A program made the position numbers and the translations under genes. From positions 1 to 40,110 of the IMG/VR virus record IMGVR_UViG_3300037485_000354: a stretch of DNA of 40,110 bases; one strand, written 5' to 3'. The stretch's first letter is position 1. Every line of letters begins with the position of its first letter. Positions 438 through 25,318 of this stretch are shown piece by piece. The stretch comes from a virus. The notes under the pieces are model-generated. The model was given only the letters and a program-made list of their open reading frames with translations, ran no database searches and had not been told where the DNA came from.

Positions 438-3400
438 TTAGAAGGCCTCCCGTAGGGTATCAATAGCCCAGACGGTACCTCTCCTGGCGCGGTCACCGGA
501 GTTATTGATTGGGGAATCAAGTGGGCCAGGGACGTGGAACTGTTCCTTGAAGGTATCTTCACCAGTTACGGCTTCGTAGCTGGCGTAGGCCCCTTGTCTC
601 ATGGCGGCACTTAGCCACTGGTATGAGCCCATTAGGGGCATTGATGTGGATACCTTGGTTATGTATTCAACTGGGTTACGCTCAAGCTCCTCATACGGGT
701 CTTCACCGGCGTAAGCTCTTAGCATGGCGTTAGCTGTTACCTCCATCGCTAGTAGTCCTGCAAAGTGACGGGCGTAGCTAGACTTTGTATATCTACGGTT
801 ACGACCGATCTCTTGGACTGAGTGCGACAATAGGAACTGCATAAAGACGTTCAAGGCTTTACCGAAGGTAGACTGGGCAATACGGAGATCCAACAAGGTT
901 GGCTCTGTGTTGGAATGACGAGTAGTCATCCCAATGTAGCCACCGAGGCGGGTGATAGCTTCCTCACGGATAGCCATTGTATCAGGATTCTCTTGGGCCC
1001 AGATCATGAGCTTGCGGACATCAAGCATACCATCTGTCATGTTCTTTGGATCCTTAGTGGCATCGATTAGAACTTGGATGTACTTGGGGTCTAGCAAGCC
1101 GGCTGAGCTTAGATCTACTGACTCCTTGGCGGTTAGGCCACAGGATCTAGCTAGCTGGGAGAATGTCGCGAGGCTAGCTGATGGATTATCTTGTAAGGCT
1201 GTAGCCAGACGCATGAACTTAGCTGAGTTCTTACTCAGATTGAGTTGGGCGTTGTGGATGTGGAGGGTCGTAGTTACCTTGTTGATAAAGGTAAGTGGAC
1301 CGCCAGCCACTCTGGCTGCCATGCTAACACGGTTCATAGTCCGAGCAAAGCCAGAGGTTTCAAGCTCATTAATACCAGAGATGGCTTCCCATTCATTTGC
1401 CCAGCTGGAGAACCAGCCAGACTGTTTGCCACCGAAGGCTACGTTATTGAATGGGTTGTCTGGCATCAGGCTAGATTTAGCCATGAGATGCTCAGATGCC
1501 ATGTGTCGAATCCAGTGAACTGAAGATGACATCTCGAGAAGTTCGCTTCTCTTGCTGTGCCGAGTAAGCTTGAGTGCTTGGATAATGTTAGGGAACAACT
1601 GTCTTAGCATTCCCTTGTTATGGTCAGAAGCTAGGATAGCTCTGGCCAATTCGGGGACTGAGCTAAGAGCTGCCCGTACACCACCAACAATCATAACTGG
1701 TACACGGCTATTCTCAAGTAGATGGTTAAGGTATGAATCGATTGAGTCTTGGCTTCTAGCCAGCTTACCCGTGTGGGATTCCCATGCGGTCTTCACTCGA
1801 TCATATCCTCGTTGTCTGGTCTTGATTTCTTCAGTGGTAAGCTTTGACTTACCGAGGTACTCTTCACCGGTCTTATTGAGAACCTCAATGAGATCGAGCA
1901 TGGATAGACGGACGTTACCACCAAAGAAGTTGGTGATCTCATTAGTCATTGCTAGATCTTGAAGTTGGTTTCTCATCTGCTGGTTGACAAGACTGAAGAT
2001 GTCTTGGCTAAAGTACTTGGCAAGTTCTGGATTAGTAGCAATCTCATTGTGGGTAAGGATACGTTCTTCTCCGTACTTACGTCCACCGCCAGTAGATTCA
2101 GATCTAGGCTTAGCTGACTTGGAGGACGATAGATCGTCTAGACCAAGGTAGCGGTTACCAGCAATCTCCATCGTGGTATAAAGAGCGGTGACATCATCTG
2201 GACGGGAACCTGCGGCTCTCTTCCAGAGTTCTGTATAGTTCTTACTCGAGATTAAACCATTGTCATGGAGAGCCCGAGTCTCACTATCGAGATCGTTTAA
2301 GATCTCTGAGAACGCCTTCTTTGATTTACTGTTCCATTCCATCTTACCATCAAAGTCTTTGATCTTTGCCTTAAGTGGTTCATAGAGGCGACTGGTGAGA
2401 TCAACATCAACGTGTGTGATCCCGTCTGTGGTTCCGTCTTCTCGACGGAGACTCAACCAGCCGAGAGCTTCAGCCGTAATGACTGACATCTCTCCAGACT
2501 TACTATTGGCCTGTGCAGCTCGTAGAGCTTGGCCGTGTAGTGCCTTAACAAACCCAGCACGATCTTTGTACGCAAGTTTACCAGCTCGACGGATGGTACC
2601 GTAGGCTAGAGGATCTGCGCCACCGTGCATATTGCCACCGGCCACCAACATCTCATTAGCAAGTCCATTGAACTTGTTAGTAGCGTTGATGACTAATAGC
2701 ACAAGGTCATGGTGCTTGATATCCTTAGGCAGGTCCCCAACTCTTGCGAGATAGGACCATGCTGTGTTATTGATTGCGGTCAACTCAGCGTTGTTCTTGG
2801 CCACGCCCTGGACTTTATCCATTGCTTGCATGAGGCCAGACTTAACTAACATGTTGGTAAGCTTTACGTTAACCTTGTCAACGCTCGGCATATCGAACAT
2901 ACCCTTGAGTTCACCGTCTCTAAGATCCATCATTGGATCGTAGATCTTACTAATGAACTGTAGGAAGACGGAGTCTGAGTCTGCTGTGGCGTGGTAATCT
3001 ACCCCACCACCAATCAGTCTACGAACTCTCTTACCTACAACACTAGCTGTAATTGGGGAGAAGATACCCGTCTCTGAATAACGATCACCCATTTGATTCT
3101 GGATCTTCTTTGTAACTACGTCGAGTACGAAGGCCTTGCGGTCATTATCATTGAGGCTACGGTAGTTACCGATTTTAGCCATTGTGTTAAAGACAGGGGC
3201 ATCAGGGTCAACGATCTTACCAATACGATCAAGGATCTTAAATGTTGACGGTTCAGATAGCGGAGCTACTCCCTTGAGGATGTCTTTGATGTAGACGTAG
3301 TCTCTAGGTTCGGTCTCTTCGTGGAGGCCCAGACCTAGGAGATCTCTTCGTCGGGATTCAACTGTTGCCTTGAGGGCTACTAGTTGCTTCTCGAGTCCTA

Positions 3401-6400
3401 GGACATCCTTACCAGCATCGCCTTCGACACTGATTCGTTTGCCCATAGCTTCTTCGGATCGGAGCTGGTTAAAGGTTTCAATCTCCTTATACAATCTACC
3501 CTTAGCCGCCTTCAAATCATTCTGTGCTTTAGTTGCAGCTGACACTGATGCCATCTGATTAAAGCGAACTGATTGTGGGGTACTGGAGAGACGGTTGATT
3601 GCTATTACCTTTCCTGCGGGTGTAACGCGGAAAGGGATACCAGAATTATGGTTGAACATGGTTTCAAGTACCTCAACAGATTCTAGACCACGGTAACCCC
3701 AATTGAAACTGCCATCTGAGTTGGCTTCAGTAAACGCAGTAAATAGTTTTGTTAGTAAGGAGGTCTCAAGGCTCTGCCCAAGTACCTTACCATCTAGAGC
3801 GTCTGAAGTTACGTCAGTTAGTGCCTCCACTAGGTTAACAAACACTGACTCTTCCTTTGGTCCCCGGGATTTTATGTTGGCAAGCTCACGCACTACGAGA
3901 GGGCTGGTTAGCCCCATCGAGATAAATTCCTGAATAGAAGAAAGCGCGTACTCCATATTAAACTTCTTAAGGTCACCATCATCTATCACAAAGGCCCAGC
4001 TATCGCCAATTGTTTTACGCTGATGGGACGTTAGAGGGTTGTTCTTAATGAACTCAAGATACGACTGAGCAATTCTAGTAAGCCCGATTTGAAACCCAGT
4101 CTGATCATCAGCAATGTACTTCATTACATCTAAGTACTGCTTGCCTTTAAGGTCAACGGCCTCATCAAGTCCCAGGATCCTTGTTGCATAGCCTATGGCC
4201 AGCTGCATGTTATTGAAAACAAGTGCGTGTAAACTCTCATGAAGAACAGTTTCTATCGCTTGCTTATTGGTCAATTGAACGCTAATGTTAATAAGTGATT
4301 CCGAAGGAGCGAATTCCCCCCTCGGGCCATCCCTACTAGTAATCACAAAGATGGGCACATCTTGAGCCCCGTCCGTGTGAGCCAGCAAGTGCTTAGCAAA
4401 TTTAGCGCTAGGGCCGCCATCTTTGGCAATCCAAATAAGAGCCTCATAGACGGATTTAACCTCACCGGTTGCTAGTGCATATACGAACGGATTGGCTTTA
4501 ATATCCTTAAAGGCCTTCGGAGAAATTATTGGGTTTAATCCTTTTGAAGAATCCCAACTAGGACCGTAGGACTCGAGCACGTTCGCCTCTAACTCCCTAA
4601 GGGTACGGTCACTCATCTGAGTTAACATCGTAGAATTCTCACCAGCGCGGTTTACACCGAGCCGAGTATCTCTGGCGTTCTCAGCAATATCACTGAGACC
4701 GTTAGCATCAAACTGTTTAGCAAGCATGTCAATACGTGCGTCTAACTTGTTGTCTAAGGTGATAGCACTATCTGGTGTTAGCGGCTTAAACGGAGTACCC
4801 GGCGCGTGTCTCAAGCTGAGAGCCGCATTGAGGTTATCAATGTATGTACCCATGCCATTACCGCTTTGTCCCCAGATTGCTCTACGGGCCGAAAGGTAAG
4901 TAGCGAGTTCAGTATCTCCGGTCTCAACGAGTAGCTTATAAAGCTCACCGGCAAGTAGATCTAAGGTTACACGGTGAGCCAGGAACTTCTCTAGCTCCGC
5001 ATCCGCTACCTTAGCTGCCATACCTTGAGCTTGTTTACCAGCGTCGAACTCAACAGCATCGCTGCCTTGTTCGCCGCGAGTCATGGATACGGTAGTAGTC
5101 TTTCTGTCTTTAGCTCCGCCCTTAGATCGGTCGGACTCTAAAAACCTCATCTCTCTCTTTCTATTTTTATTTATAGCTCCATAGTAAGCATCAACAGCGT
5201 CAACATTTAGCGGCTTACCTTGGAAGTCTGTCTCACCCCTAGCCCATGCAATGTATGCAGCTCTCTTATCGACAAGCGGCATATCATCTGCTAGGCCGAG
5301 GCGTTTAGCTACGTCTTCGATCTTATCTACGTCTTCAATGGCTTTCATAAAGAACTGAATACCGAACAGACCGTCAACACCGGGCCGCGCTAACGCAGCA
5401 TTAAGATGTGTTAAATCATTTAGGACCTTTGGTGTCATTACCTCAGGCCCGTCTTCGAGGGTGCTGAGTTTCTCTTTGAACCTCTCGTTCATAGAGTAGA
5501 TGTGATCAAGGAGCGACATCTCAGATGGCGCTTCCTTCAAGTTCATAGTCCGTTCTGTAATCGTTCGTCTCTCTCGGTTTAACACCAACGTGCTAAGTTC
5601 AGTAAAGAGAAACGGGTTGGCTTCAATCTGTTGTCTAGTAGCTGGGGCGTGTGAAAATCTCTCACCTTGGGCACCACCAAGCATCCATCCAAGAAGACGG
5701 GCTACTTTCATCTGTGGCAAGGTCGAGCCCGGTTCTAGGAATGAGAAATCAAATACCTTGTTAAGGAATACCTCATGATAGGCCTCACTAATACCAAGTG
5801 ACTTGGCTGCCTTAGCTGCCTTTTCCTTGGTGATTCCAGTAGGGGCCGTAGGTTCAAACAACGGTTTAATTTCCGCTGTTGGCTTTGGCACCGAACCGGC
5901 CTCTGGAATATTCTGTCCCAGAACGCCAGCGCGAACTACAGACGCATGGCTCTCGTAGATACCGATTGACTTTTGAGCGCTAGATATATCGTCTCTCGAT
6001 TGTGGTATCGTTTTATGTAACTCAATTAACGCGAGGTTTGACTCATACTTGGTTCTGTTTACTACATTATTGACGAAGGCCTGAGACACGCGGTGTGCTG
6101 CAACGGTGTTAGCGTTAGCCATTAGCGTTAGGCCTCTAAAGTATGTAGTAAGTCTTACTGACACTCCATTACCGCCAAACTCTTTCTCTACCTTTGCAAT
6201 TAGTTCTGGCTTAGTTGGATCCTGCTGAAATAGATCCAGTAGGTTCCACTGATCACCAGTAAACTTGTTAGCATTTTCCTTTATCTTTTTCTTCATATCA
6301 ATGAACGTTCTGAGTTCTGCCTCATCCATTCCAACGAGATCGTCAAGAGCTCTGGTAGTAATGAGGTGTCGAACTTGCGCTTCAAAGTATTCTGAACTGA

Positions 6401-9400
6401 TATTTTTCTCTTTGCCACTTGTGACGAGATCAATGATCTCCTGCATACGGGTCGGATTGTCAAGGATAATCGTAGCTAGTGCATCTAGTCTGCTTCTTTC
6501 CTTAGGACTCACTCGCGTTTCCACTTTGTTCTTAGCGGATAAAGCTCTCCTACCCGCAGCGGAAACATCTTCAAGTACTTCTTCACCAACTTCCTCAACC
6601 TTAGCTTCAACATTAACGGTGGATCGTCTCGGCATTGCATCGGGGGGAGTAGTGAATGCCTTTACGGCTTCCTCCAGAGTTCCCTTAGAAGCAACGCTAA
6701 CAACCTCCGCTGAGTGAGCTTGCATAGCTGACGCATTGTCTGCATCTGACTGTCTTGCAACAGCCGCGATAGCAAGGTTAGTGTCTAGTACTACTTCAAC
6801 TCCGTCTGCGCTTACGAACTTCTTATCTACTAGTGCTACCTCTCTAGCAGCTAACCACACCTTAAATGGGATGGTGTAAGCAAGTGGGGGCCTATTAAAG
6901 TCTTCATTCATCCACTCTAGCTCTAGAGCATACATCTTCCTATTTGCCTCATGTTTCACCATAAATTCAGCAAGATTTTCATTTAGCTGTTTTTGTTTTA
7001 ACATAAATGCTTCAAATTCTTTGTACTCAGCAGTATCTAGAAATTTAGTTAATCTATCCATGGCAGCATCTAAGTCTCGCGAAGAGACACTAACTGATTT
7101 AACCCCTGCTGCTTTAGTAACCTGCTCTATCTTACTGGATACTACTTCTATTTCTTGTTTCATCTGAGCAATCTCAGCTTCAGCTTTAACCATAGTGTCA
7201 AGAAGAACCTGACGGTTTGGGTCCATAGTACGAGGGCCTTCTTCTACCACCATTGCCGTTGGCTTTGCCTTACGGCGAGCAACTACTACGGCGGAGGTGG
7301 GCACTTCTACCCGATCAACCACTGCGGTTACATCTGCTTTGATATCAGCTGCTGCTTTAATGATGGCGGTGTTAACTACTACTGGAGTAATTACCGTTTC
7401 CAACGTTTCTAGTTTTACATCGATGTCACCTGGTGTATCGAGTGCAGCAATGATAGCCTTGAGTTCTGGAGCGTCACGGAGAACAAGATCTGCTTCCGCT
7501 ACAGCTACTGCCTCAGCCGTTGCTTTTGTAGGGATGCCGGCCTCTGTGAGGATAGCAGCCTTTGTCTCAACAACAATAGCCTTAGTGGCAATCTTCGTTA
7601 CAACTGCGGGAGCGTCAGCAGGAACAGCAGCAATCTTTGCTTTAGCTTCCTTACGGATCGCTGCTGCCGCCTTCTTTACGTTATTAGTTCTTCTGACGTG
7701 CTCTCTAATGATATTCGCTGCACTCAATTCCATGAACGAGTGGGCAAGATACAGTCGGCCATCAGATAGACCCACGTCATCAACGCGAGTGATTACATTT
7801 GCTATCATGTCTGGATTCTTGACGGCCTCTGCGGCAAGCCGAGTAAGCGTCACGGAATCAATTGACTTCATTCGGGATGGATTTACAACTACCTTAATAT
7901 GTCCAGCAGTATCAGTAAGCGTTCGCTTACCGGCTGCTAGAGCCTCAGCCTCAGTGACGAGGTCTGTTAGACGGGATGTAACTTCAGCTTCTGTCATTGT
8001 CGGATTTGACTTAAGCCATTCCCGAACTCTTCGTCTCGAAATAGAAGAGTTTGTAGCTGCTTCAATCTTTAGTGTAATCTCTTCAGCCTTAAGAACCTTG
8101 ATTGTTAATGCCTCGACTAGAGGATCAGTAACAGTTTTTGCAGCTGAAAGACGTTTATCAAGTGAAGCCTTATAGTTATTCCAGCGCATCTCTCCGAGGA
8201 TTGATACGCCAAGCTCTTCTCTAACATCCTTATCTAGATTCTTCCATAGCTTCTGATATGCAACATCAAATAGGTCAGAGATTTTATCGTTGGATCGGTT
8301 GAGCAACATGTCAAAGACACGGTCTGCTGCTGGCGAAAGCTCAAAGCCCTTTTCAAGGTGGCCTTGTGATTTGAATCCAGCGCCAACTTCACCAATGTTA
8401 TCTCCAAGCTTGTGGAACAATCTCTGAATCGAGGTGAGTGGTCCGGTAGAGGTTGCCTTACCCTGTAACGCTTTCTGGATATAGACAGACCAACCGTTAG
8501 CGATCTTCTCGCGAACAGCTACAGAGGCGGTATGGATATCCTTACCCTTCTCTACTCCTGCCCAATCCTTAAACGCATCAAACATCTCATCAGAGATACC
8601 GATAGCGTGACGCTTGCTGCGCCCAGAGTCACCCATAAAGAGTGCATCGTTAAAGTGGCCCATCTCATGGATACATGTACCCATGTCGCTGGCTGTTGTA
8701 GCGCGGATGAGAGCATTAACTCCCAGCAAGTCATTAGTGTTAAGCTCGATCTGGCCTACTGCTCCTTTTGTGAAGCCGTTAACGCCAGAGACAGCCCGTG
8801 CAAGTTCAATGCTCGAGTTTACATCATCAAGCCCAAGGGCTTTCATGATCACAAGAGAAGCCACAGCTTGAACCTTATCCATATCAAATACGCTCTGTAA
8901 GGTATCAACTCTGACTGGCTTATTAGCCTTGATGGCATCTGCAATTGCTTTAATCTTTGTCTTTTCTTTAGGATCTTTTGCCTCTTTGAGTTTCTTCTCA
9001 AGGAGTTTGATCTCTCTGTTTGTGTACTCTTCAGCGAAGAGGGCGCGTACTTTAGTCTCAGCTTCAGTTAGCTTCCCATTAAGAGTGTCAGCTCGAATGA
9101 TGTTCTCACCCGTAAAGTCTGCCTTACTTGCTAAGTCAAGTTCAATCTTGATTTCACCGGTCGCTGGATCAGTTACAAGCTTACGATCAGATCCCGTGAC
9201 TGTACCATCTTTGAGATTTACTTCAACGATGTAGTTAGGATCTTCTGAGTCGGTAATGTAAAACTTATCTTTATTGCCTGATACCTGCGTCATGATCCTA
9301 TCATGAACAACTTGAGGCATCGGGACGTGACCCTCAGCCGCTCTCTTAGGGACTAGGCCCATGACTTCTTTCATGGCGGCCTGTACACCCGTTTCAAGTT

Positions 9401-11399
9401 CAAGGCCTCGTTGTGCTGCTCCGATGTTATAGACGGAACGGAAGTCAGTGGTGTTACCCAGATCCATTACACGTCCAGCGTGGCCTTCAGCAACGGCTAG
9501 TACACCAGAGAAATTAAGACCGTTCTTACGGAATTTAGTATCCAAGCCAGCAACAGCAAGGAGTCGTTCCACTCTAATGGCATGATCCCGATATTCAACA
9601 CGGTTCGGACTAGCTTTATCCTTAAGGCTTTCACCGAGGAATAACTCTTCTGCCGATGCTCGTTGTTGTGGACCATGCTCACCATACCTCTTAAGAAGTA
9701 GTTTGACATCGTCATAATCAAGATCCATTCGTTCTAGATTGCCCTTGTCCAACATTGCGCCAAAGAGTGCTTTGGCTTCGTGGCCGGCAGCCCCGGTCAT
9801 AGCGGCTTCACCGGCAATGCCAGTAGCCTTCTCGAACTCGATGGACACCTTAGAGGCTGCTTCCATATCGTAGTTCATCTTACTTACTGTCAGTGGATCG
9901 AAGTGTCCCCATAGACGGGAACCATTCATCATTACTTTTGTAAAGTCGCGCTTGTCACCAAACTTACGTAGGTGATTGTCAACTAAATCCATAAACGCGA
10001 TACCTCGGCCCATACCAAGCTGATCACCGTAAATTATATTACCGTCCGCTGTGGTAGCCCAATTATCAAACGTGTTTGCAACGTTCTTTGTCCAAGACTG
10101 TAGGTTGTCTCCAAAGTTCTTCGGGGAATACTTAGCCTTGAATGAGGCTGGGGCGAATGAGGCGGTAGCGGCGATACGTGTGGCATCGATACCGAGCCGC
10201 ATTACACTCATCATGCCAGTTGATAGGAGGCCGGCACCAATACTATTGGTAACGGCTCCGCCATAGTCGTACTCGAAATGCTTCTTATCGTTAAAGACCA
10301 AGCTCTTCCAGTCGTAGTCATCCTTTTGAGATGCAAGGGAGGAGACATAGCCAACTGTAGCACCTTCTGCAAATAGGCCAAGGGCTCTACTTGCAATTGG
10401 TCGTGCGGTATTGCCGAGACCACTAAAGATAGTACCCGAGGCAGCTCTGAAAGTCGCGCCTTCAACGAGACCGGTCATCGGTCCGGTTAACAACATACCT
10501 TGGGTGGCTACTGTCTTCGCCGCAAGGGCAGCTCTGCCGCCCATTACACCGAATCGTGCAGCAGCAAACCCAAGACCGCCAAGACCAGCTGTAGCGATGG
10601 TTGTAACAATAGTGTCACGCATGAAGCCAGGATCTTGTAGACCTTCTCCAATGTTCTCTCTAGCTGAGAGGGCCCACTCACTGTACCAGTGTGGGGTGAT
10701 CTCGTTATATACTTTATTGCGGGTAGAGAGTTGTGCCATGCGGGTAGCTTCTTTAACGGCTGCTTGAAACTGGAAAGGATTGGTTGAGTTCAACGCAATG
10801 TCTTCGATTCCGAACCCGTTAGCTGCGGCATATCGAACAAGATCAGGATTTGAGTCCTTCATTTGCTTTACGGCGGCAAGCTTTCGAGTTACATCCCAAG
10901 TGTCATCCTGTGTTGCTAAATCCTTTAGTAGTTGGGTGTACTCTGGGGTATCTCTGTCTGCCCAGACCTTAAACATATTACCAGTATTACTCCAATACTC
11001 TCCTGCGCCTTCCCATGAGGCTGTTGATTCCTCTTTAGCGCTTTTGCTAAGGGAGCCATAGTCGGTACCTCTAGCAAGGGCGATGCGGTCATTCTGTACG
11101 CTTAGGGATTGCTCCCCGTAGCCTACAGGTCCGCTTTCCATTCTCTCTTCAACACCGGCAGAGGCAATCTCTACTCGGGTTGATGTATCCTTAACAAGTG
11201 TCATCAGCCCATCTTTATCGAAGTGTGGTCGGATTTTTCCTGTGCGGAGATCCTCATCATACTGCGCGGCATCGTATGCCTGTTGGGTTGTTTGACCTTC
11301 TTTGAGTGGTTGCAGAAAGAAACTTGAATCAATTCGCGGCAACTGAGCCTTCGGACTTGAGTCGAAGGGGGATGCCGTCTCTGGTTTTGGTGTTTCCAT
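438..11399 (-). CDS. Giant internal virion (ejection) protein, gp16-like position, two HExxH motifs
   Basis: This 3653-residue protein is the last gene of the ejection block, where T7 has gp16 (about 1318 residues). I therefore infer that it is packed in the head and injected with the DNA. Visible parts are: a Gly/Ala-rich hydrophobic stretch at about 261-357 with more to about 415, a zincin-type HEMGH at 911-915, an Ala/Val/Lys-rich low-complexity linker at about 1250-1400, then coiled-coil-like sequence, a second zincin-type HESLH at 2387-2391, and a long helical C-terminus. I found neither the gp16 transglycosylase signature nor T7-type RNA polymerase motifs. The layout resembles phage large polyvalent proteins. 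The start ATG has AGGA 4 nt upstream, just after a strong hairpin. The frame is open throughout, with no sign of decay. The ejection role is inferred from position and size. Confidence 0.75.
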   Translation of the reverse strand: METPKPETASPFDSSPKAQLPRIDSSFFLQPLKEGQTTQQAYDAAQYDEDLRTGKIRPHFDKDGLMTLVKDTSTRVEIASAGVEERMESGPVGYGEQSLSVQNDRIALARGTDYGSLSKSAKEESTASWEGAGEYWSNTGNMFKVWADRDTPEYTQLLKDLATQDDTWDVTRKLAAVKQMKDSNPDLVRYAAANGFGIEDIALNSTNPFQFQAAVKEATRMAQLSTRNKVYNEITPHWYSEWALSARENIGEGLQDPGFMRDTIVTTIATAGLGGLGFAAARFGVMGGRAALAAKTVATQGMLLTGPMTGLVEGATFRAASGTIFSGLGNTARPIASRALGLFAEGATVGYVSSLASQKDDYDWKSLVFNDKKHFEYDYGGAVTNSIGAGLLSTGMMSVMRLGIDATRIAATASFAPASFKAKYSPKNFGDNLQSWTKNVANTFDNWATTADGNIIYGDQLGMGRGIAFMDLVDNHLRKFGDKRDFTKVMMNGSRLWGHFDPLTVSKMNYDMEAASKVSIEFEKATGIAGEAAMTGAAGHEAKALFGAMLDKGNLERMDLDYDDVKLLLKRYGEHGPQQRASAEELFLGESLKDKASPNRVEYRDHAIRVERLLAVAGLDTKFRKNGLNFSGVLAVAEGHAGRVMDLGNTTDFRSVYNIGAAQRGLELETGVQAAMKEVMGLVPKRAAEGHVPMPQVVHDRIMTQVSGNKDKFYITDSEDPNYIVEVNLKDGTVTGSDRKLVTDPATGEIKIELDLASKADFTGENIIRADTLNGKLTEAETKVRALFAEEYTNREIKLLEKKLKEAKDPKEKTKIKAIADAIKANKPVRVDTLQSVFDMDKVQAVASLVIMKALGLDDVNSSIELARAVSGVNGFTKGAVGQIELNTNDLLGVNALIRATTASDMGTCIHEMGHFNDALFMGDSGRSKRHAIGISDEMFDAFKDWAGVEKGKDIHTASVAVREKIANGWSVYIQKALQGKATSTGPLTSIQRLFHKLGDNIGEVGAGFKSQGHLEKGFELSPAADRVFDMLLNRSNDKISDLFDVAYQKLWKNLDKDVREELGVSILGEMRWNNYKASLDKRLSAAKTVTDPLVEALTIKVLKAEEITLKIEAATNSSISRRRVREWLKSNPTMTEAEVTSRLTDLVTEAEALAAGKRTLTDTAGHIKVVVNPSRMKSIDSVTLTRLAAEAVKNPDMIANVITRVDDVGLSDGRLYLAHSFMELSAANIIREHVRRTNNVKKAAAAIRKEAKAKIAAVPADAPAVVTKIATKAIVVETKAAILTEAGIPTKATAEAVAVAEADLVLRDAPELKAIIAALDTPGDIDVKLETLETVITPVVVNTAIIKAAADIKADVTAVVDRVEVPTSAVVVARRKAKPTAMVVEEGPRTMDPNRQVLLDTMVKAEAEIAQMKQEIEVVSSKIEQVTKAAGVKSVSVSSRDLDAAMDRLTKFLDTAEYKEFEAFMLKQKQLNENLAEFMVKHEANRKMYALELEWMNEDFNRPPLAYTIPFKVWLAAREVALVDKKFVSADGVEVVLDTNLAIAAVARQSDADNASAMQAHSAEVVSVASKGTLEEAVKAFTTPPDAMPRRSTVNVEAKVEEVGEEVLEDVSAAGRRALSAKNKVETRVSPKERSRLDALATIILDNPTRMQEIIDLVTSGKEKNISSEYFEAQVRHLITTRALDDLVGMDEAELRTFIDMKKKIKENANKFTGDQWNLLDLFQQDPTKPELIAKVEKEFGGNGVSVRLTTYFRGLTLMANANTVAAHRVSQAFVNNVVNRTKYESNLALIELHKTIPQSRDDISSAQKSIGIYESHASVVRAGVLGQNIPEAGSVPKPTAEIKPLFEPTAPTGITKEKAAKAAKSLGISEAYHEVFLNKVFDFSFLEPGSTLPQMKVARLLGWMLGGAQGERFSHAPATRQQIEANPFLFTELSTLVLNRERRTITERTMNLKEAPSEMSLLDHIYSMNERFKEKLSTLEDGPEVMTPKVLNDLTHLNAALARPGVDGLFGIQFFMKAIEDVDKIEDVAKRLGLADDMPLVDKRAAYIAWARGETDFQGKPLNVDAVDAYYGAINKNRKREMRFLESDRSKGGAKDRKTTTVSMTRGEQGSDAVEFDAGKQAQGMAAKVADAELEKFLAHRVTLDLLAGELYKLLVETGDTELATYLSARRAIWGQSGNGMGTYIDNLNAALSLRHAPGTPFKPLTPDSAITLDNKLDARIDMLAKQFDANGLSDIAENARDTRLGVNRAGENSTMLTQMSDRTLRELEANVLESYGPSWDSSKGLNPIISPKAFKDIKANPFVYALATGEVKSVYEALIWIAKDGGPSAKFAKHLLAHTDGAQDVPIFVITSRDGPRGEFAPSESLINISVQLTNKQAIETVLHESLHALVFNNMQLAIGYATRILGLDEAVDLKGKQYLDVMKYIADDQTGFQIGLTRIAQSYLEFIKNNPLTSHQRKTIGDSWAFVIDDGDLKKFNMEYALSSIQEFISMGLTSPLVVRELANIKSRGPKEESVFVNLVEALTDVTSDALDGKVLGQSLETSLLTKLFTAFTEANSDGSFNWGYRGLESVEVLETMFNHNSGIPFRVTPAGKVIAINRLSSTPQSVRFNQMASVSAATKAQNDLKAAKGRLYKEIETFNQLRSEEAMGKRISVEGDAGKDVLGLEKQLVALKATVESRRRDLLGLGLHEETEPRDYVYIKDILKGVAPLSEPSTFKILDRIGKIVDPDAPVFNTMAKIGNYRSLNDNDRKAFVLDVVTKKIQNQMGDRYSETGIFSPITASVVGKRVRRLIGGGVDYHATADSDSVFLQFISKIYDPMMDLRDGELKGMFDMPSVDKVNVKLTNMLVKSGLMQAMDKVQGVAKNNAELTAINNTAWSYLARVGDLPKDIKHHDLVLLVINATNKFNGLANEMLVAGGNMHGGADPLAYGTIRRAGKLAYKDRAGFVKALHGQALRAAQANSKSGEMSVITAEALGWLSLRREDGTTDGITHVDVDLTSRLYEPLKAKIKDFDGKMEWNSKSKKAFSEILNDLDSETRALHDNGLISSKNYTELWKRAAGSRPDDVTALYTTMEIAGNRYLGLDDLSSSKSAKPRSESTGGGRKYGEERILTHNEIATNPELAKYFSQDIFSLVNQQMRNQLQDLAMTNEITNFFGGNVRLSMLDLIEVLNKTGEEYLGKSKLTTEEIKTRQRGYDRVKTAWESHTGKLARSQDSIDSYLNHLLENSRVPVMIVGGVRAALSSVPELARAILASDHNKGMLRQLFPNIIQALKLTRHSKRSELLEMSSSVHWIRHMASEHLMAKSSLMPDNPFNNVAFGGKQSGWFSSWANEWEAISGINELETSGFARTMNRVSMAARVAGGPLTFINKVTTTLHIHNAQLNLSKNSAKFMRLATALQDNPSASLATFSQLARSCGLTAKESVDLSSAGLLDPKYIQVLIDATKDPKNMTDGMLDVRKLMIWAQENPDTMAIREEAITRLGGYIGMTTRHSNTEPTLLDLRIAQSTFGKALNVFMQFLLSHSVQEIGRNRRYTKSSYARHFAGLLAMEVTANAMLRAYAGEDPYEELERNPVEYITKVSTSMPLMGSYQWLSAAMRQGAYASYEAVTGEDTFKEQFHVPGPLDSPINNSGDRARRGTVWAIDTLREAF

Positions 11400-11479: not shown

Positions 11480-14400
11480 TTAGTGTGTGCGGGGTCCAAA
11501 GTAATCCTTAGGATATAGCTTACCGTAAGCCTTTAGCTCACGGAGCTGATCCTCAGATAGGTCTTTGAAGTACTCTGCAATAAAGCGTGGGATCGTAGCG
11601 TTTGTATCCGGTGGGGGTACGCTTTCCCATACAGGCTCAGGACGAGGAGAGGTATCCATGCGTGGTTTAGATGCACCATAACTCAACTCAATCGGTTTAC
11701 TTTGAGAGCCTCTAGCAATCTGTCGGTTTCGGTAGTTTGCCAACTCTGTTAGCTGAGCATCTGTTGGCCTTGGTTCACGAAGAACCTGAAGGATATGCAA
11801 AGGCAAAGTAACATTGGATGGTTGTAGAAGACCATTAAGAGTTGAAGCTGCGATCTTTTGGAAGTTCAGATACTCTTCAGGTGCCGGTGTTCTTAGTGGG
11901 CCAACCCCTCCTAGAAAGCTATTTACTGCTGAGTCCATAACGTCATTGTTGAAATCGGAGGCCCGATCTATAACGTACTTCTGGGCATTTGCTACTGCGT
12001 TAATCTTGCCGCTCATATCATTGATTATGTCGGCGGAGACGGCTCTAGCTGCGTTTCGCATTTGAGTATCAAAGATAGCGCCATCGTTTGGCCCCGGTGG
12101 GGGCAGACCAAGGCCTGGATCTTTGACCTCATATGCATCTAGTCTGTCCACGCCACCAATTGGCGGCGGAGCCATTTGACTATTGAAATTAGAGGGATCA
12201 GATAGCCAGCGTGGATCCGTTGGATACCGTAGCTTTCCGTCCGTTAGTTCTCTATCGATAGCATCAGTTGGCCAGTTGGCCATCTGTCTATCGAAGTCCG
12301 CTTGTGAATTAGTATTGTCATACACCCGGTCTGTGGCTACGCCGTTGATGGGTGGTGCTTGTAGCGGACTATTAAAATTGGGTCCACCAAACTTTTGAAA
12401 CTCATCGATGTACTTCTGAACATCTGGAGGTAGCTCATCGAATGAGGTCTCTGCTTCTTCGCGGGTAGGGTAGGTTGATGTCGGTCCCTCTAGTGGATCA
12501 GTAAAGATACTAGGACCGCTCATGGCCTTTACGTTGGGGGAAGGATAGAAGGTAGGCTTTGCTTCCGAAAGAATTCCAAGAACTGGAAATTTAGTTTTCT
12601 TGTTCCTAAACTTAAGGTGATCATAGAACATAGAGTTCTCTGGTGTGTGTGTTACATCCAGCACAACTTCCTGGTTGTAGTTGTCGTGATCAACGCCACG
12701 CTTATAGGTGTGGGTTGTTTCTCCGCGCCATGTTTCAGCAACGAATCCACGTCCCATCCACTCTGGAAGGTCTAGGGAGAATACCGGAGCTTTGCCTTTA
12801 CGGCGAAGGCTAACAGTATCCTTATCTGGGTTGTCTGCAAACCACTGGATGATTACAGCATCGTTTCCGTTGCGTTCATCATTATAAGGAATACCAGCGG
12901 ACACCATTTCCTTGGTGTCTCTTCTCATGGCCTCCTGTAACCACCCTTCCGACTCACCTTTAAGATTAACCTTTGCTTGATCGTTAATTGTTTTAGGCCC
13001 GACCTGCATTCTTGCAAGCGGCTTACCGTCAAGACTAAGAACTACTAAGGTCTGTTTGTTTACTTCACCTGCGTTTCCAGGTTCCATTCTATATTCGACA
13101 AAGTATTCTCTAGATTTACCATTAAAGGCCTTCTTAATTTCACGGCTCATGGCCGTTAATCCTTGCTGTGACTGCTCAATAGTTTCACCTGGGGTAAACT
13201 TATAAGCGTTCAACGCAGCAATGCCGGCGATAATAGATCCGTTATCCGTACCCGATCCTTTAGCTGCATCGAATAGGACACCTAGGTCAGCCCTACGATC
13301 ACTGGTGTCTTGTAGCCCATCATCCCCATACTTGGGAATTTTACTTACTGCAACCTGTGCTGCCATTGCTGTGTGGTGTGGAGCTGCTTTGAAGGCAGCC
13401 TTAGTCGATAGCTTAAGATCATCCCACGTAGCCTTGGTACCAAATTGTAGATAGAGCTGATAGTTATCACCATCATTCTGTGTGAGGGCTGTTGACATTG
13501 AGTCGGACTTAGCAATGAGTTGAGTTTCCTTACCTCTTACTTTAAGACCGGCTTGTGCTCCTGTGAAAACACTTGCGTCGAGTTCAATTGTGGAGAATTG
13601 ATCGGGGGAGTCAGGAATGTAAGCAACAAGTTGCGGTCCAGTCTGTCCCCTAATAATGGAGTACTTCTTTTCTATTGACCTCTGCATGACACCACGGACC
13701 TTGTCCCAGCCTTCTTGGCTAGATAGGATGTCTTGCGGTGTTTGAGCGGTGTCACTAAAGGTAGTGACAGTAGTCACAGCTTTCATAAACTCACCATAGA
13801 GTGTTTCCTTTAGTGCTGCCTGATTTGGGTTTTCTATCTCGTCTGCTGTTAAAGGCTCTAAAGCATTAGTGAAGTTAAGCTTGGTAAAAATGTCATCCAT
13901 AGCTGGTTTAAGCTTTGCAAACATTTCTGCTGCGGCTTTAACCTCAGCTCCAGCAGTGGTGTTTACCTTTGATGGATCATCGCTTTGCTTACCTCGATCT
14001 AGTGCGTTCTGCATATTACGAAGCTGCTGCATATCATCAGCGCTTACTGATTTAACGGTTTTCATATGTGCCATAGTATCGGCACCGGCCACAAATGTTT
14101 CACTGGAGATAGCTAGAGCATCAACATTATTCTTATAGATCGGATTGTCGTACATCTTAGAGCTCTTAAGCGCAAGGATAAGTTCAGCCCGTTCTTGTGG
14201 ACTGTGCGCTAAAATGATGGTACCTAGGTACGATACATCTAAGGCTGCTCCATTTTCAGCGCCTTCCTCTAAGACTTTTACAAGTGCGTTAGAGGTTTCT
14301 TTTGCAACGTGTGTAGTAACTGACGAAGCGCGGTTACTGTGAGAGTCACCGGGCTGAGACGTAAGACCAGCAACTAATGATCTGCTCTCTTCTTTTGCTG

Positions 14401-16384
14401 CCATAAATTCTGGGTCACCAGTTAACTTTGCAAAGTCAACAATCTCTGGATATAAAGCCATGAGATCCCGAGTAGGGATCTTCTGTGCTTGTGGGTCTTT
14501 TCTTTGTCTTTCCTTTAGAGAGGAAATAAAGTCATTCGGAGTCATGCCGTGTTGATAGCCATAGTTTAGCGTGGCATTATAGGCCACTACCTCACCGGTT
14601 CTTTCGGCTGAAACAGACTGCTTTCCTCCACTCATCTCACCGGTAGACCACGCGATATATTCGCTACTTAGTTCAGCTTCTTTAGCAGCTTGAGCTTTGC
14701 TAGCGGAACTCGTCCCCTCAGGGAACGCTTTCCGTTGCGCTTCGTTATAGAGTTCGTAGGCTTGGGCAAAGGCAGCTGCCGCATAGTTCGGCTGCTTAAG
14801 GCCGCGCGAATCAAACTGAGCCGTTGCGTTAACAAACGCATCCAACTCAAGACCGGGAATATCAGAGCCACGCTGTAGAAGTTCACGTATCCGTCCTCCT
14901 GCCTGTTGAGGGATTCTGGGATCGGGGGAAGTTAGTCTACTTCTCTCTTGAGACGCTGCTTTCCACTCTGGGTTGAGGTACTCAAACTCCTTCATGATGT
15001 TCTGCTCAAGATTAGCTAGAGTGGCTAGTCGGGCGCGGTTCTTATCAAACTCGGGGGCTGTAGAGGAGTTAATAGCGCTGATAGCGGTGTCGTAACTTAC
15101 CCTTAGTAATTTGACGTTAGTCTCTCTTTGCTTATATTCTTTTGCAATAAGGGAATCCATAGTACGGGCCTCACGGCTAAGCACTCCGGTTTTTCCGGCA
15201 TCAATCATTGCTGTCATATTGCCCAGCTTAGTAATAATTTCCTTACCATCCTCGCCCATAGCCCGAGTTAGGAAGGGTATAACCTCGAGGTAATTAAAAT
15301 TACCATCATCAGTAATAAACTCTTTTGGGTTAGTAACTCCAGCCTGTGTTAATAGACGCTGAATAGTTCCATTAACCGTGTTCTGCATTTGATAAATGTT
15401 ACTTAGGGTTTTAGCCCGAAGCTTCAAATACTCATCGTTGGCTATGTTGCCGCCCTCATTAGCCTTCTGTGCCAGTAGCGTTTCCAGTTCAGAGATCTGT
15501 TTCGTAACGCCCTGACCGACTTGTTCTGAGCCGCTTAGTGTAGCATAGATGTCAAAAAGGCTTGCCTTCTTTAGTTTCTCCTGATACTCGGCCTCAGCCT
15601 TTGAATCAGAAGCAAGGTGCTTTGTCCTTGCGTCTTGTGATGTAAGAAGTAAATCCTGTAGCTTAAGAATGCGATCCCTCTCAACAGCTGATCTACCTGT
15701 TAGACTTTCGGCTGTAATGTCTGGATTATTAAGCGCAACCATCAGCATACCACCATATACTTGGGATTTATCCGTGTTTACGCTGCTCGTATAACCAAGG
15801 CGCACAAGCTCCTGTCTGCTGAATCGCTCCATCTCATCGGTTAATCTATCACGCTCTGCAATAGTCTTAGCATTGGCAATATCGCTTTTCATTCGATTAG
15901 TATATGCAACAATGGCAGTGTTCTCTACTATGTCTTTCTCTTGCAAAGAGCCAACAGCAACTTTAGCGTTGTAGGAAGCACTCATGCTCAGGGCCATAGA
16001 CCCTAGGCGGCTAGATGCTTTTTCATTTGGGTCGTACCCAAGAATTTCTTTAACTCGCGCCTGATGTGCAGGTTTCTCCGCTTCAGCGGACTTCCAATCG
16101 TTCTTGATTGTATAGATGTCAAGACGATCACTCATGTCTTGAGCCTCCTTTTTGAGGAGGGCTTCTTTTTCAGCTACTTGGTTTTCCTTATAGCCGGCGT
16201 AGAGTTCAGATCCAACCTGCAAGGCGGACTGAGCTACTGCTGTCATGTTAATACCACTGTAGCCAACACCAATCTTGGTGTCAGGGAGGATTGTCTTCCC
16301 CTCCTGATACACTTGTACATCTAGTGCCTCAATGCCTTGCGGGCCTTGGGGGCTAAGTCTTTGATTATTCTGGAATTGACTCAT
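11480..16384 (-). CDS. Large internal virion protein, gp15-like position (1634 aa)
   Basis: This is a long, mostly helical, charged protein in the place where T7 has gp15 (747 residues), so it is about twice the usual size. Residues about 45-190 look helical with coiled-coil character (heptad-like runs around EKEALLKKEAQDMSDRLD). The middle is helical and Ala-rich. The last 350 residues are Pro-rich with repeated PPI(N/G)GV-type segments (for example at codons near 12350 and 12160). I see no signal peptide and no enzymatic motif. It starts at ATG with GGAGGATC 6 nt upstream, and it overlaps the previous gene's stop by ATGA. It is inferred to be part of the ejectosome that lets DNA cross the cell envelope. 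The assignment rests on order and on its helical character, because sequence resemblance to gp15 by eye is weak. Confidence 0.65.
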   Translation of the reverse strand: MSQFQNNQRLSPQGPQGIEALDVQVYQEGKTILPDTKIGVGYSGINMTAVAQSALQVGSELYAGYKENQVAEKEALLKKEAQDMSDRLDIYTIKNDWKSAEAEKPAHQARVKEILGYDPNEKASSRLGSMALSMSASYNAKVAVGSLQEKDIVENTAIVAYTNRMKSDIANAKTIAERDRLTDEMERFSRQELVRLGYTSSVNTDKSQVYGGMLMVALNNPDITAESLTGRSAVERDRILKLQDLLLTSQDARTKHLASDSKAEAEYQEKLKKASLFDIYATLSGSEQVGQGVTKQISELETLLAQKANEGGNIANDEYLKLRAKTLSNIYQMQNTVNGTIQRLLTQAGVTNPKEFITDDGNFNYLEVIPFLTRAMGEDGKEIITKLGNMTAMIDAGKTGVLSREARTMDSLIAKEYKQRETNVKLLRVSYDTAISAINSSTAPEFDKNRARLATLANLEQNIMKEFEYLNPEWKAASQERSRLTSPDPRIPQQAGGRIRELLQRGSDIPGLELDAFVNATAQFDSRGLKQPNYAAAAFAQAYELYNEAQRKAFPEGTSSASKAQAAKEAELSSEYIAWSTGEMSGGKQSVSAERTGEVVAYNATLNYGYQHGMTPNDFISSLKERQRKDPQAQKIPTRDLMALYPEIVDFAKLTGDPEFMAAKEESRSLVAGLTSQPGDSHSNRASSVTTHVAKETSNALVKVLEEGAENGAALDVSYLGTIILAHSPQERAELILALKSSKMYDNPIYKNNVDALAISSETFVAGADTMAHMKTVKSVSADDMQQLRNMQNALDRGKQSDDPSKVNTTAGAEVKAAAEMFAKLKPAMDDIFTKLNFTNALEPLTADEIENPNQAALKETLYGEFMKAVTTVTTFSDTAQTPQDILSSQEGWDKVRGVMQRSIEKKYSIIRGQTGPQLVAYIPDSPDQFSTIELDASVFTGAQAGLKVRGKETQLIAKSDSMSTALTQNDGDNYQLYLQFGTKATWDDLKLSTKAAFKAAPHHTAMAAQVAVSKIPKYGDDGLQDTSDRRADLGVLFDAAKGSGTDNGSIIAGIAALNAYKFTPGETIEQSQQGLTAMSREIKKAFNGKSREYFVEYRMEPGNAGEVNKQTLVVLSLDGKPLARMQVGPKTINDQAKVNLKGESEGWLQEAMRRDTKEMVSAGIPYNDERNGNDAVIIQWFADNPDKDTVSLRRKGKAPVFSLDLPEWMGRGFVAETWRGETTHTYKRGVDHDNYNQEVVLDVTHTPENSMFYDHLKFRNKKTKFPVLGILSEAKPTFYPSPNVKAMSGPSIFTDPLEGPTSTYPTREEAETSFDELPPDVQKYIDEFQKFGGPNFNSPLQAPPINGVATDRVYDNTNSQADFDRQMANWPTDAIDRELTDGKLRYPTDPRWLSDPSNFNSQMAPPPIGGVDRLDAYEVKDPGLGLPPPGPNDGAIFDTQMRNAARAVSADIINDMSGKINAVANAQKYVIDRASDFNNDVMDSAVNSFLGGVGPLRTPAPEEYLNFQKIAASTLNGLLQPSNVTLPLHILQVLREPRPTDAQLTELANYRNRQIARGSQSKPIELSYGASKPRMDTSPRPEPVWESVPPPDTNATIPRFIAEYFKDLSEDQLRELKAYGKLYPKDYFGPRTH

Positions 16385-17379
16385 TCAGATCCTCCATATA
16401 GGTCTGTAATTTTCATAGCGTCTAGCATCATCTGATCCTCCGTTTGAGGGCCAAGTTTTGCTCTACCAGCGATACCTCGATTGATGGCACCGCTGGTTCC
16501 GTCGTTCATAAGTGACATTGCACCGCCCCACTCTTCAATTGGCATACCTTCATCAAGCATACCCATTGCAGCTCCGGCGACTGCCCTGTTGTCCTGTGAC
16601 TGCTTAGCCTGTCCAGCCTTGAGGGCCAGACCAATAGCTTCCTTTGCAATCTTAGGTACGATACTGTAGATCATCTCCATCTCAAGGCTATTAGGACTAG
16701 CCTCAGAGACTCCTTCTGTGTCCTCGATTGAGTACACTGGTCTAACTGCACCAGACTCATCTGCCACGGCAAATCTGCCGTTGACAATCTGAGCCATATC
16801 AGTAAGACCGAGAAGCTCCAACTTAATGAGCTCATCGATGTGTACTTCAGAGGCTACGTCTGGATCTAGTTGTCCTAGGTTCATCTTAGCGAGTGTTGAC
16901 TTAAGGGTCATCTCGTACATCTTCTTTACCTTGACTGAGTTCTGGTTGGCGTTCACGTTAGCGACACCGGCCAGCTTTGGACTCATCTCGTTGACGAGCC
17001 AGTCAGGGCTTTGTGACATCTCATTGCGTAGGTTAGACTCTGCAATTGATGGGTCCTTTTGATCGAGTGGCTTGTTAGCCTGTGAGCGAAGATATTCCTT
17101 GGCTCGATCTGGGCTAGTGGGGTGGGTAGATTCAGCGATGTCCCACACCTCGTTGGCATTATCCGACGAGATATCTTTCTTGCTGTCCTCATACCAGCGT
17201 ACCCAAGCTTCGTGTGGATCTTGATAGAGTCCACTATATTTAGCTCGTTCGCCCCTGATCTTCTCTGTGTTTCTCTTAGCAGTGATCTGCTTCAGAGACA
17301 TAACCTTTTCTTTAATCTCTTCCTGTCCCCTGCCTGTAGCAAGACGGTATAGTGATTCTAGTTTCTTAGGGTTTAGCAT
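16381..17379 (-). CDS. Internal virion-associated protein of unknown function (332 aa)
   Basis: This soluble, acidic, helical protein lies between the gp14-like and gp15-like genes. It is coupled to both (TAATG at its start, ATGA at its end), so its product is probably needed in similar amounts and may belong to the same ejection complex. GGGAG sits 5 nt upstream of the ATG. The N-terminal 60 residues are rich in Lys/Arg/Glu. Around residues 255-290 there is a Gly/Ala/Met-rich stretch (AVAGAAMGMLDEGMP) but no clear membrane span. T7 has no gene at this position. I do not recognise the family. Confidence 0.7.
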   Translation of the reverse strand: MLNPKKLESLYRLATGRGQEEIKEKVMSLKQITAKRNTEKIRGERAKYSGLYQDPHEAWVRWYEDSKKDISSDNANEVWDIAESTHPTSPDRAKEYLRSQANKPLDQKDPSIAESNLRNEMSQSPDWLVNEMSPKLAGVANVNANQNSVKVKKMYEMTLKSTLAKMNLGQLDPDVASEVHIDELIKLELLGLTDMAQIVNGRFAVADESGAVRPVYSIEDTEGVSEASPNSLEMEMIYSIVPKIAKEAIGLALKAGQAKQSQDNRAVAGAAMGMLDEGMPIEEWGGAMSLMNDGTSGAINRGIAGRAKLGPQTEDQMMLDAMKITDLYGGSE

Positions 17380-18017
17380 TAGACTCCCGCCCTTACATCC
17401 GCCCGGTGGGCACCATAACCAGCTGACGCAGCACCGAAGGCGCTAGTAGCAATTCCGGTCATAAGTACCGACGAAGATGAATCAACGATACCACCGGTTG
17501 ATGGCATGAATGATGCCTGTTCTGGATTACCTAGATTCATCTTAGATAGCATGTTCTGATACCCTGTACCGATGTCTCTCTGCTGATTGTTGTAAGAGAC
17601 GCGAACCGCCTCTGAGTTAATCTTAGCTTCGTTGGCTACTTGTCGTAGCACGGATCTTGCCGAAGCTGAGTCTAGGCTCATGCCCCGCTGTGACACAGCG
17701 GCTAGGAAGCCGTCAGTTGTCTGTCGGGTTTGCTTTGACATCATTGATGTCTGGTTCTGATATTCTTTCTTACTGTAGATCTGTTGAGTAACAAAGGCCT
17801 TATTAGCCCCCTTCTCAATCTGAATGTTTGCTTGTTGTTGTGCTTGCCACTGTCGTAGCAAGTTTCTATTACTGGCTTCGTTCTGCCACTTGTTCTGAAA
17901 GTTCTGGTTTCGCTGCTGCATCTCAGCTGCCATTGCAGCTGCCTTTGCTTCGCCTGAGCCACCAATGGCTCCCATTACTCCAGACATAAGTGCCATACCG
18001 CCCATGATGAAAGGCAT
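17379..18017 (-). CDS. Internal virion protein, gp14-like (212 aa)
   Basis: The size and layout match T7 gp14 (196 residues): a short hydrophobic Gly/Ala/Met N-terminus (FIMGGMALMSGVMGAIGG), then a long Gln/Asn/Ala-rich amphipathic helix region (about 25-160), then a Gly/Ala/Ser-rich hydrophobic C-terminus (about 180-205). In T7, gp14 is ejected first and forms the outer-membrane part of the DNA-translocation channel. The same role is inferred here. ATG is preceded by GGAGGA, with 8-9 nt spacing, 3 nt after the terminase stop. Its stop overlaps the next start. This is the best-supported member of the ejection block. Confidence 0.8.
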   Translation of the reverse strand: MPFIMGGMALMSGVMGAIGGSGEAKAAAMAAEMQQRNQNFQNKWQNEASNRNLLRQWQAQQQANIQIEKGANKAFVTQQIYSKKEYQNQTSMMSKQTRQTTDGFLAAVSQRGMSLDSASARSVLRQVANEAKINSEAVRVSYNNQQRDIGTGYQNMLSKMNLGNPEQASFMPSTGGIVDSSSSVLMTGIATSAFGAASAGYGAHRADVRAGV

Positions 18018-18020
18018 GTG

Positions 18021-19715
18021 TTAAGTCCTCCGGAAGAAGTCTACTATTGACCTCTGTGTTGTTGGTTGTTGATCGTGATACCGTAATGCACCACTGAGGC
18101 GCTCTGAGAAAAGACCTTCGACTCGTTTGTTTCCGAGCCACATCTTAATCATATCCTTGTGAGCATTCTTTTCGTTGCGTTCAATGAGTGCTTCAGGGTT
18201 GATGACCATCTCCTTAGACCAGTTATGGACTGCGGATGACAGTACGTCAACTCTATCGTCATGCTTTAAGCATCCTCGTTTATCTTGGATGCGGGTGATT
18301 TGATTCTGAGTTTCTTTATCGCGGATCGCGTTGGTCGAAAAGATCAATCGATGCTGTGCCATTACCGGCTCGAGGGTATCGATGATTCTCTTCTCTTTGC
18401 TTCCCGTAACTCTGAACTCCTCGACTGCCATACGCCCACAGATCTTAGAGACAATAGGTCTTAGTAGATTTGTGAACATACCGTCTCCGTAGTTAGACTC
18501 AACTAAGACTCTATCCGCCTTATAGCGGTACGCAATCTTAGCAATCTTTGCTAGTGTCACCTCATCGTATCCGCCATCTAATCCTTCTAGGGTATGGATA
18601 ACAATGTACCCATTCACAAAGGAGGCAACGCATACGGCTGTCTCATCTGCGCCTCGACCTGAGGGATCGACGAAGACAACTGTTTCGAGGTACTTGATGA
18701 AGGTGGTAGATACCCACTGCGGCTTAAAGAGGAAGTCCCCGTTAAGTCCGTGACACGGAATCTGGTGTTGAGTTACTTTGCCCCACACTACCTTATCTGG
18801 AAATACATCCACTGGGACATCCATCACAATTAGATCATCGAGTCTTAGGGGATGCTTTGCAGCGTCAGCAAGACTTGGATCTAGCATGTAGTGGAGTGCA
18901 AACTGTCGTGGACCAATCTTAGCGAGGCGCTGGTCAAGGACATCTTGAGGAAAACGGATTGGGTCTACAGTTTCTCCAGCCTCAATCTCTAGATCGAGGA
19001 TGTACGGAGAGACGTGTAGACACTGATCGTCTAGCCCTCTGTCTGGCATGATGGCTGGGAACTTAATAATGGTGTACGGCAGTCTAAGGTAGATGCTGTC
19101 TGTTGATTGATATGTTCCAAGCAGAATGATACGACCGTCTACAACCGGGTTGCGAATTTGCTCAAGTTCTGTGAGCTTCTCTAGTAGTTTACTTCTCTGT
19201 GCCGGTGTCTCACTATTGCTTTGGATCTCAACGTCATCACATAGGACAAAGTCCGAGTGACTACCAGTGAGCTGACCAGTGATACCTTTAGCGGTACAGG
19301 AGAGATCCTGTCCGGCTCTCTCTCTTGTCTCAACATTGAATCCAAATGCGCTATCCTTAGTGGATGGGCCTGGAATCAGATGAGCCATGTACGGTACAAG
19401 CGTAAGCGTGTTACGCACCTGAGAGATGAACTTGATTGCTTTGTCTTGTGTTGCTGATAGAACTAGGATGGTGCAGTTAGGATCCTTAAGAAGGAGCCAC
19501 GATGCGTACATAGCCACCAGCGTTGATTTGCCAGCTCCACGTCCAGCTTGTAGCTGGAAGTCACGTGGGCCGGTCTGTAGTGTCTCTGCGATGGCGTACT
19601 GTAGCGGGGTTGGTTCCCCGAGTCCGAGGTACTTCATACAGAAGAACACGTGGTTTCTAAAATCTTCTAAAACTTCAATGGGTGCTTCGATGTTGCACCT
19701 CCTTTCAAAGACCAA
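18021..19715 (-). CDS. Terminase large subunit (DNA maturase B, gp19-like)
   Basis: This is the packaging motor ATPase and nuclease that pumps DNA through the portal and cuts concatemers. Counting from the upstream TTG, Walker A is QAGRGAGKST (56-65) and Walker B is FVLCDD (156-161) with Glu163. The RuvC-like nuclease residues are Asp350 in VVFVDPSG, Glu406 in VLVESNYGDG and the DDRVD cluster at 486-490. The length fits T7 gp19 (586). The start is uncertain. The only conventional upstream start is TTG at 19715, which lies inside a hairpin stem without a good ribosome site. AAAGGAGGTG (19705-19696) sits inside the reading frame, 6 nt before an ATC codon at 19691, which would give a 556-residue protein. 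Small terminase lies just upstream, beyond a structured leader. Confidence 0.95.
   Translation of the reverse strand: MVFERRCNIEAPIEVLEDFRNHVFFCMKYLGLGEPTPLQYAIAETLQTGPRDFQLQAGRGAGKSTLVAMYASWLLLKDPNCTILVLSATQDKAIKFISQVRNTLTLVPYMAHLIPGPSTKDSAFGFNVETRERAGQDLSCTAKGITGQLTGSHSDFVLCDDVEIQSNSETPAQRSKLLEKLTELEQIRNPVVDGRIILLGTYQSTDSIYLRLPYTIIKFPAIMPDRGLDDQCLHVSPYILDLEIEAGETVDPIRFPQDVLDQRLAKIGPRQFALHYMLDPSLADAAKHPLRLDDLIVMDVPVDVFPDKVVWGKVTQHQIPCHGLNGDFLFKPQWVSTTFIKYLETVVFVDPSGRGADETAVCVASFVNGYIVIHTLEGLDGGYDEVTLAKIAKIAYRYKADRVLVESNYGDGMFTNLLRPIVSKICGRMAVEEFRVTGSKEKRIIDTLEPVMAQHRLIFSTNAIRDKETQNQITRIQDKRGCLKHDDRVDVLSSAVHNWSKEMVINPEALIERNEKNAHKDMIKMWLGNKRVEGLFSERLSGALRYHDQQPTTQRSIVDFFRRT
19696..19705 (-). 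promoter_or_regulatory. Strong Shine-Dalgarno sequence placed for an ATC start of large terminase
   Basis: AAAGGAGGTG on the minus strand is close to a perfect anti-16S match. The AGGAGG core ends 6 nt before an in-frame ATC (19691-19689). No ATG, GTG or TTG occurs at a usable distance, and the next in-frame ATG is about 19 codons downstream. A T7 gp19-like N-terminus would begin about here. Confidence 0.6.

Positions 19716-24244: not shown

Positions 24245-25317
<1,073 letters not shown>

Positions 25318-25318
<1 letters not shown>

Follow-up and report, generated by a model that had tools for sequence, protein, structure and literature searches.

A giant, probable ejection protein of the polyvalent type with a predicted zinc peptidase domain in a T7-type podovirus

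The stretch of DNA analyzed here (40,110 nucleotides; hereafter the window) is a linear IMG/VR contig from environmental DNA in which every assigned gene lies on the minus strand. It carries a T7-type structural set comprising a connector, scaffold, major head protein, tail tube proteins, fibers, and terminase. The fourth gene after the terminase, preceded by genes of 212, 332, and 1,634 residues, encodes a protein of 3,653 residues (the giant). Two genes with collagen-like GxT/GPT repeats (24245-25318 and 25318-26244) are found amid the fiber genes, and the C-terminal part of a ribonucleotide reductase gene (39314-40108; phrog_367, E 3e-61) is cut by the end of the record. The record is probably incomplete, and related records span up to 58-67 kb; because of this incompleteness, the description of the genome as compact, given in an earlier note on this DNA, is not borne out. 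The features considered here are as follows.

18021-19715, minus strand: terminase large subunit (TerL), T7 type (phrog_38, E 9e-98; PF22530, E 5e-34)
17379-18017, minus strand: 212-residue gene, gp14-sized (sub-threshold match to T7_gp14, PF24072, E 0.5)
16381-17379, minus strand: 332-residue gene of the presumed ejection module, without significant family match (Pfam, PHROG)
11480-16384, minus strand: 1,634-residue gene, gp16-sized, for a probable ejection protein, without family match
438-11399, minus strand: giant protein, 3,653 residues, unbroken frame from ATG
9540-11267, minus strand: conserved N-terminal module, residues 45-620 (33-35% identity to three relatives)
8220-8789, minus strand: predicted zincin domain 1 (Z1), residues 871-1060 (profile homology and 25-sequence alignment)
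8655-8669, minus strand: HEMGH, predicted zinc-binding motif of Z1, residues 911-915, read codon by codon from 8669 to 8655 (H911, E912, and H915 invariant in 25 sequences)
8508-8510, minus strand: E964, proposed third zinc ligand of Z1, in an ExxA helix (invariant in 25 sequences)
5850-7862, minus strand: poorly conserved middle, residues 1180-1850 (gappy in the four-relative alignment)
3480-4952, minus strand: probable zincin domain 2 (Z2), residues 2150-2640 (about 21% identity to three relatives)
4227-4241, minus strand: HESLH, residues 2387-2391, read codon by codon from 4241 to 4227 (H, E, and H invariant in four sequences)
3927-3929, minus strand: E2491, candidate third ligand of Z2, in an EFIS/EFIA/EFVA context (invariant in four sequences)
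480-3332, minus strand: conserved C-terminal module, residues 2690-3640 (about 44% identity to three relatives)

The frame of the giant is uninterrupted from ATG to stop (11399 to 438). Codon-wise reading thus confirms the intact frame of about 11 kb that had been reported and places it on the minus strand, which the earlier note did not give; the plus strand across 438-11399 is crowded with stops. No whole-protein family for the giant was found in Pfam, PHROGs, NCBIfam, or PADLOC, and residues 655-3653 had no tblastn match among 50,697 phage records. With the whole giant as query, viral contigs and phage records returned nothing, and relatives were reached via TerL alone, through which 66 related loci were gathered. 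In all 14 of the TerL-family records with enough downstream sequence (a set that includes two near-duplicate pairs), a giant frame of 3,176-5,331 residues is present at the same place, where it closes the module that begins at TerL. The 1,634-residue gene likewise has a counterpart at the same place in the relatives (1,143-1,817 residues).

The giant had previously been compared with T7 gp16, which is 1,318 residues long (PMC8954989). The two share a T7-type podovirus background and an ejection-type gene cluster, and the length ratio given earlier is right (the giant is 2.8 times as long); its place differs from that suggested, being fourth after the terminase and behind the 212-, 332-, and 1,634-residue genes. 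Unlike gp16, the giant has no transglycosylase recognizable by family models, and it has no detectable sequence similarity to that protein. The reported absence of a gp16-type transglycosylase extends to all 11 records searched with family models, none of which has an SLT domain. Membership of the giant in the T7 gp16 family was rejected on the missing SLT domain and the lack of a Pfam or PHROG match, and the 1,634-residue neighbor is the better gp16 candidate.

Three distinct relatives (L083, L084, and L085) align with the giant over its full length at about 34% identity, and the best-aligned parts are the N-terminal third and the last 950 residues. The C-terminal module is also common to the more distant giants G011, G012, and G024 (hhalign 96%, E 1.6e-9), in which the middle differs. 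Against solved structures, the N-terminal module has no convincing relative (a chance-level profile match only), and the C-terminal module profile has no match. Two giants of the clade, G012 and G024, contain no HExxH motif, and the peptidase is therefore dispensable for some giants. In giants of other branches (4.0-5.3 thousand residues; L089, L090, L091, L096, L097, and L099), a zincin-like region occurs in which HExxH is followed by a conserved EF-type Glu. Of 14 giants or fragments of giants that were scanned, one matched SprT-like and two matched RNase_H_2.

The two HExxH motifs described in the earlier note, HEMGH at residues 911-915 and HESLH at residues 2387-2391, were verified and are the only ones in the protein. 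Such motifs do arise by chance in long proteins, and protein databases contain HExxH at only about twice the expected frequency (PMC3650047). Among 5,000 shuffles of the giant with the same composition, however, the mean expectation was 0.063 motifs per protein, and only 0.12% of shuffles held two or more. The catalytic His and Glu residues of both motifs, whose loss in relatives had been named as evidence against the reading, are invariant in L083, L084, and L085 at about 34% identity, and chance is therefore no explanation. A search downstream of each motif for a third zinc ligand found E964 for the first and the candidate E2491 for the second, each likewise invariant in those three relatives. 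Additionally, the first motif is homologous to a zincin-type family. That both motifs are chance products of a long protein is thus very improbable: judged by these comparisons, a chance origin is excluded for the first and unlikely for the second.

A zincin assignment for the first motif is well supported by sequence homology. The search with the Z1 domain drew in large phage proteins that are elsewhere unrelated (L107-L110, then L119-L147), and hhalign of Z1 against the L107-L110 family gave 98% probability (E 1.8e-13). Seven residues are invariant in the 25-sequence alignment (T908, H911, E912, M913, H915, E964, and F995). Among these, E964 is the sole Glu downstream of HEMGH; it belongs to an ExxA pattern some 50 residues past the motif, close to where a predicted helix starts, and this is the position expected of the third zinc ligand. 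In the zincins of polyvalent proteins, the second helix supplies a Glu as third ligand (PMC5512222). The structure prediction that had been suggested around residue 911 gave a model of moderate confidence (pLDDT 71, pTM 0.50) in which helices and two strands are followed by the HExxH helix (model residues 87-102) and then by the E964 helix (141-159). This predicted order would agree with polyvalent-protein zincins as described (PMC5512222), yet a Foldseek search of the PDB with the model retrieved no solved zincin (best E 1.2). Matches to a viral structure library were weak (best E 0.025), one of them being an ART-PolyVal-like phage protein. With the Z1 profile, solved structures yielded only a weak match to Spartan (SprT; E 0.09), and weak matches to zinc peptidase families were recurrent among members of the Z1 family.

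Homologs of Z1 occur in named phages, including Bbp10 of Bordetella phage BPP-1 (hhalign 89%, E 2.2e-6, at Bbp10 residues ∼774-939) and gp16 of Pseudomonas phage AF. The gene for the latter protein (2,213 residues) directly follows those whose annotations read internal virion protein A, internal virion protein B, and structural lysozyme. Residues 700-1000 of Bbp10 served as one of the seeds for CLCA_X, a family of predicted zincins (PMC3650047), and Z1 is homologous to this seed region, with the same HExxH and downstream ExxA helix. Z1 departs from CLCA_X in that the family consensus is HExxHxxxD (PMC3650047), whereas Z1 reads HEMGHFNDA and its relatives HEMSHYLQV; the carriers differ in size as well (3,653 residues in the window against ∼2,050 for Bbp10). 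In L108 and L109, the Z1-type domain shares its chain with ART-PolyVal and with either LPD23 or LPD22, the ART match of L108 falling below the curated cut-off. Genome contigs searched with the Z1 family yielded no locus that could be confirmed, and papers on phages AF/Ab31 and UFJF_PfDIW6 contain no virion proteomics for a Z1-bearing protein.

For the second motif, H2387, E2388, H2391, and E2491 are invariant across four sequences, and H2387 and H2391 alone are conserved among the seven His residues of the Z2 region. The AlphaFold2 model of Z2 (pLDDT 45) is unusable, its profile has no match among solved structures, and further relatives of Z2 were sought with none found beyond those already known. 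Profile comparison of Z2 with Z1 and with the zincin-like region of other giants was insignificant (hhalign 8% and 3%), and Z2 was therefore kept unmerged with the latter. Z2 is somewhat more probably an active zincin than not. The zincin reading of the earlier note thus stands well for the first motif, with its homology to predicted zincins and its invariant HExxH and Glu, and is suggested for the second by four sequences.

Polyvalent proteins of phages and conjugative elements (Iyer et al. 2017, PMC5512222) offer the closest frame of reference; they are multi-domain proteins that phages deliver to the host early in infection, and the zincin is their commonest domain (PMC5512222). Like them, the giant combines great length, zincin-like domains along the chain, and a late/virion gene context (PMC5512222); this context, adjoining virion genes, is consistent with injection. 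By sequence, Z1 is predicted to have the polyvalent-type arrangement, in which the conserved helix that comes after HExxH bears the third-ligand Glu; for Z2 this is only suggested. Furthermore, cassettes of ART-PolyVal, an ADP-ribosyltransferase domain of polyvalent proteins, occur in close relatives of the window's giant, as they do in polyvalent proteins (PMC5512222). Such cassettes are present in five of the 14 records, always inside the giant frame and at differing places: in L085, which has both HExxH motifs, the cassette (E 9e-18) lies between the second motif and the C-terminal module, and in G011 and G024 it is found near residues 1,300-1,575. In G006 (L084), the ART match is only partial and scores under the curated cut-off, and no ART domain was found when sought in the window's giant and in L083. 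Unlike known polyvalent proteins, the window's giant has none of their named Pfam domains, and its N- and C-terminal modules match no family; beyond its two zincin-type domains, no second kind of enzyme was recognized (Pfam, PHROG, NCBIfam, PADLOC). The giant is probably an unannotated member of the known polyvalent-protein class. By the sequence collections and literature examined, the family itself, its size range, and the exchange of cassettes in proteins that end T7-type ejection modules are new.

Another large ejected protein, the virion RNA polymerase (vRNAP, gp50) of phage N4, has ∼3,500 residues and an HExxH-bearing C1 domain (PMC12633501; PMC5512222). The giant resembles gp50 (PMC12633501) in length, in its place in an ejection module, in having an HExxH domain, and in its large C-terminal part without known relatives, but the RNA polymerase domain is absent. 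RNA polymerase matches over the cut-off occur in eight of 11 related records, all in separate frames of 598-820 residues; the remaining three, including the window, are short and may lack the polymerase region. Because the relatives have separate T7-type RNA polymerases and no polymerase family matches the giant, an N4-type virion polymerase was rejected as its identity and is extremely improbable. In three of the records, a T7-type RNA polymerase frame of ∼815 residues is accompanied by a second, more divergent T7-type frame of 598-708 residues (G013:C1:14350-15303, G014:C1:36608-37528, and G021:C1:29689-30573).

We consider it likely that the giant is ejected by a T7-type podovirus as a protein of the polyvalent kind and that its Z1 is an active zinc peptidase, with cutting of its own chain as the likeliest activity. 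Gene order and kinship with polyvalent proteins both favor the earlier proposal of an ejected protein, and it is from these two that we infer ejection itself; we likewise infer packaging, zinc binding, peptidase activity, and the substrate. The giant would be packed in the head and ejected with or before the DNA via a tube of the smaller ejection proteins, to refold inside the host cell. Packaging, ejection, and anchoring are the probable tasks of its N- and C-terminal modules, and the middle would carry exchangeable enzyme cassettes; those recognizable here are two putative zinc peptidase domains (Z1 with good support, Z2 as a probable one), to which relatives add an ADP-ribosyltransferase. 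In Z1, H911, H915, and E964 would be the zinc ligands and E912 the general base, and the domain would most likely cleave the giant chain, in the head or on arrival, freeing working pieces.

Two roles have been proposed for the zincins of polyvalent proteins: they may process the protein that carries them, be it before packaging, inside the head, or within the host, or they may attack host proteins (PMC5512222). Carrier processing is ranked first, with the processed DdrB of phage P1 as the clue (PMC5512222), and self-processing is the role that we favor for the giant, at slightly better than even. The targets named in the earlier note, the host envelope and defense proteins, are one option, placed second by the published reading. 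Injected zincins that cut host envelope, transcription, or defense proteins on entry, rather than the giant chain, are named as possible effectors in the same paper (PMC5512222), and the neighboring cassette in relatives, ART, is a protein-modifying enzyme; given the published preference for carrier processing, we regard this alternative as possible but rather unlikely. A purely structural role, with the giant as an outsized gp16-like protein of the tube or inner membrane and its HExxH domains as scaffolding, may have a precedent in phage N4: DdrB is cut before packaging (PMC5512222), but N4 vRNAP is packaged uncut though its HExxH region is needed for packaging (PMC12633501; PMC5512222). The N- and C-terminal modules are also the best conserved parts of the giant. 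Nevertheless, the catalytic residues and third-ligand Glu of Z1 are invariant across 25 diverse proteins, kept catalysis is therefore favored, and the gp16-sized 1,634-residue gene already adjoins the giant, so scaffolding without catalysis is unlikely and ranks third, behind self-processing and host targets. A more elaborate form of self-processing can be put forward tentatively, as a doubtful proposal: a chain of 3.2-5.3 thousand residues would pass through a T7-type tube as an injected polyprotein, its own zincins would cut it after refolding into separate effectors, and its middle cassettes would be swapped among relatives.

These observations add a family of giant polyvalent proteins (3.2-5.3 thousand residues), missed by current family models, in T7-type phages with their own RNA polymerase, and extend the occurrence of giants in ejection modules beyond N4-type phages. 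Swapped cassettes (zincin, ADP-ribosyltransferase) lie between constant ends, and such a system makes it testable what peptidases do in phage proteins that are injected. Within the family, the N-terminal part of the 5,331-residue giant of G014 resembles a separate 894-residue gene upstream of the G018 giant (E 1e-9), which in turn is similar to a 1,199-residue gene of G025 (L090:2024-18016; L097:2943-5624; L099:2032-5628), and these similarities suggest gene fusion or fission.
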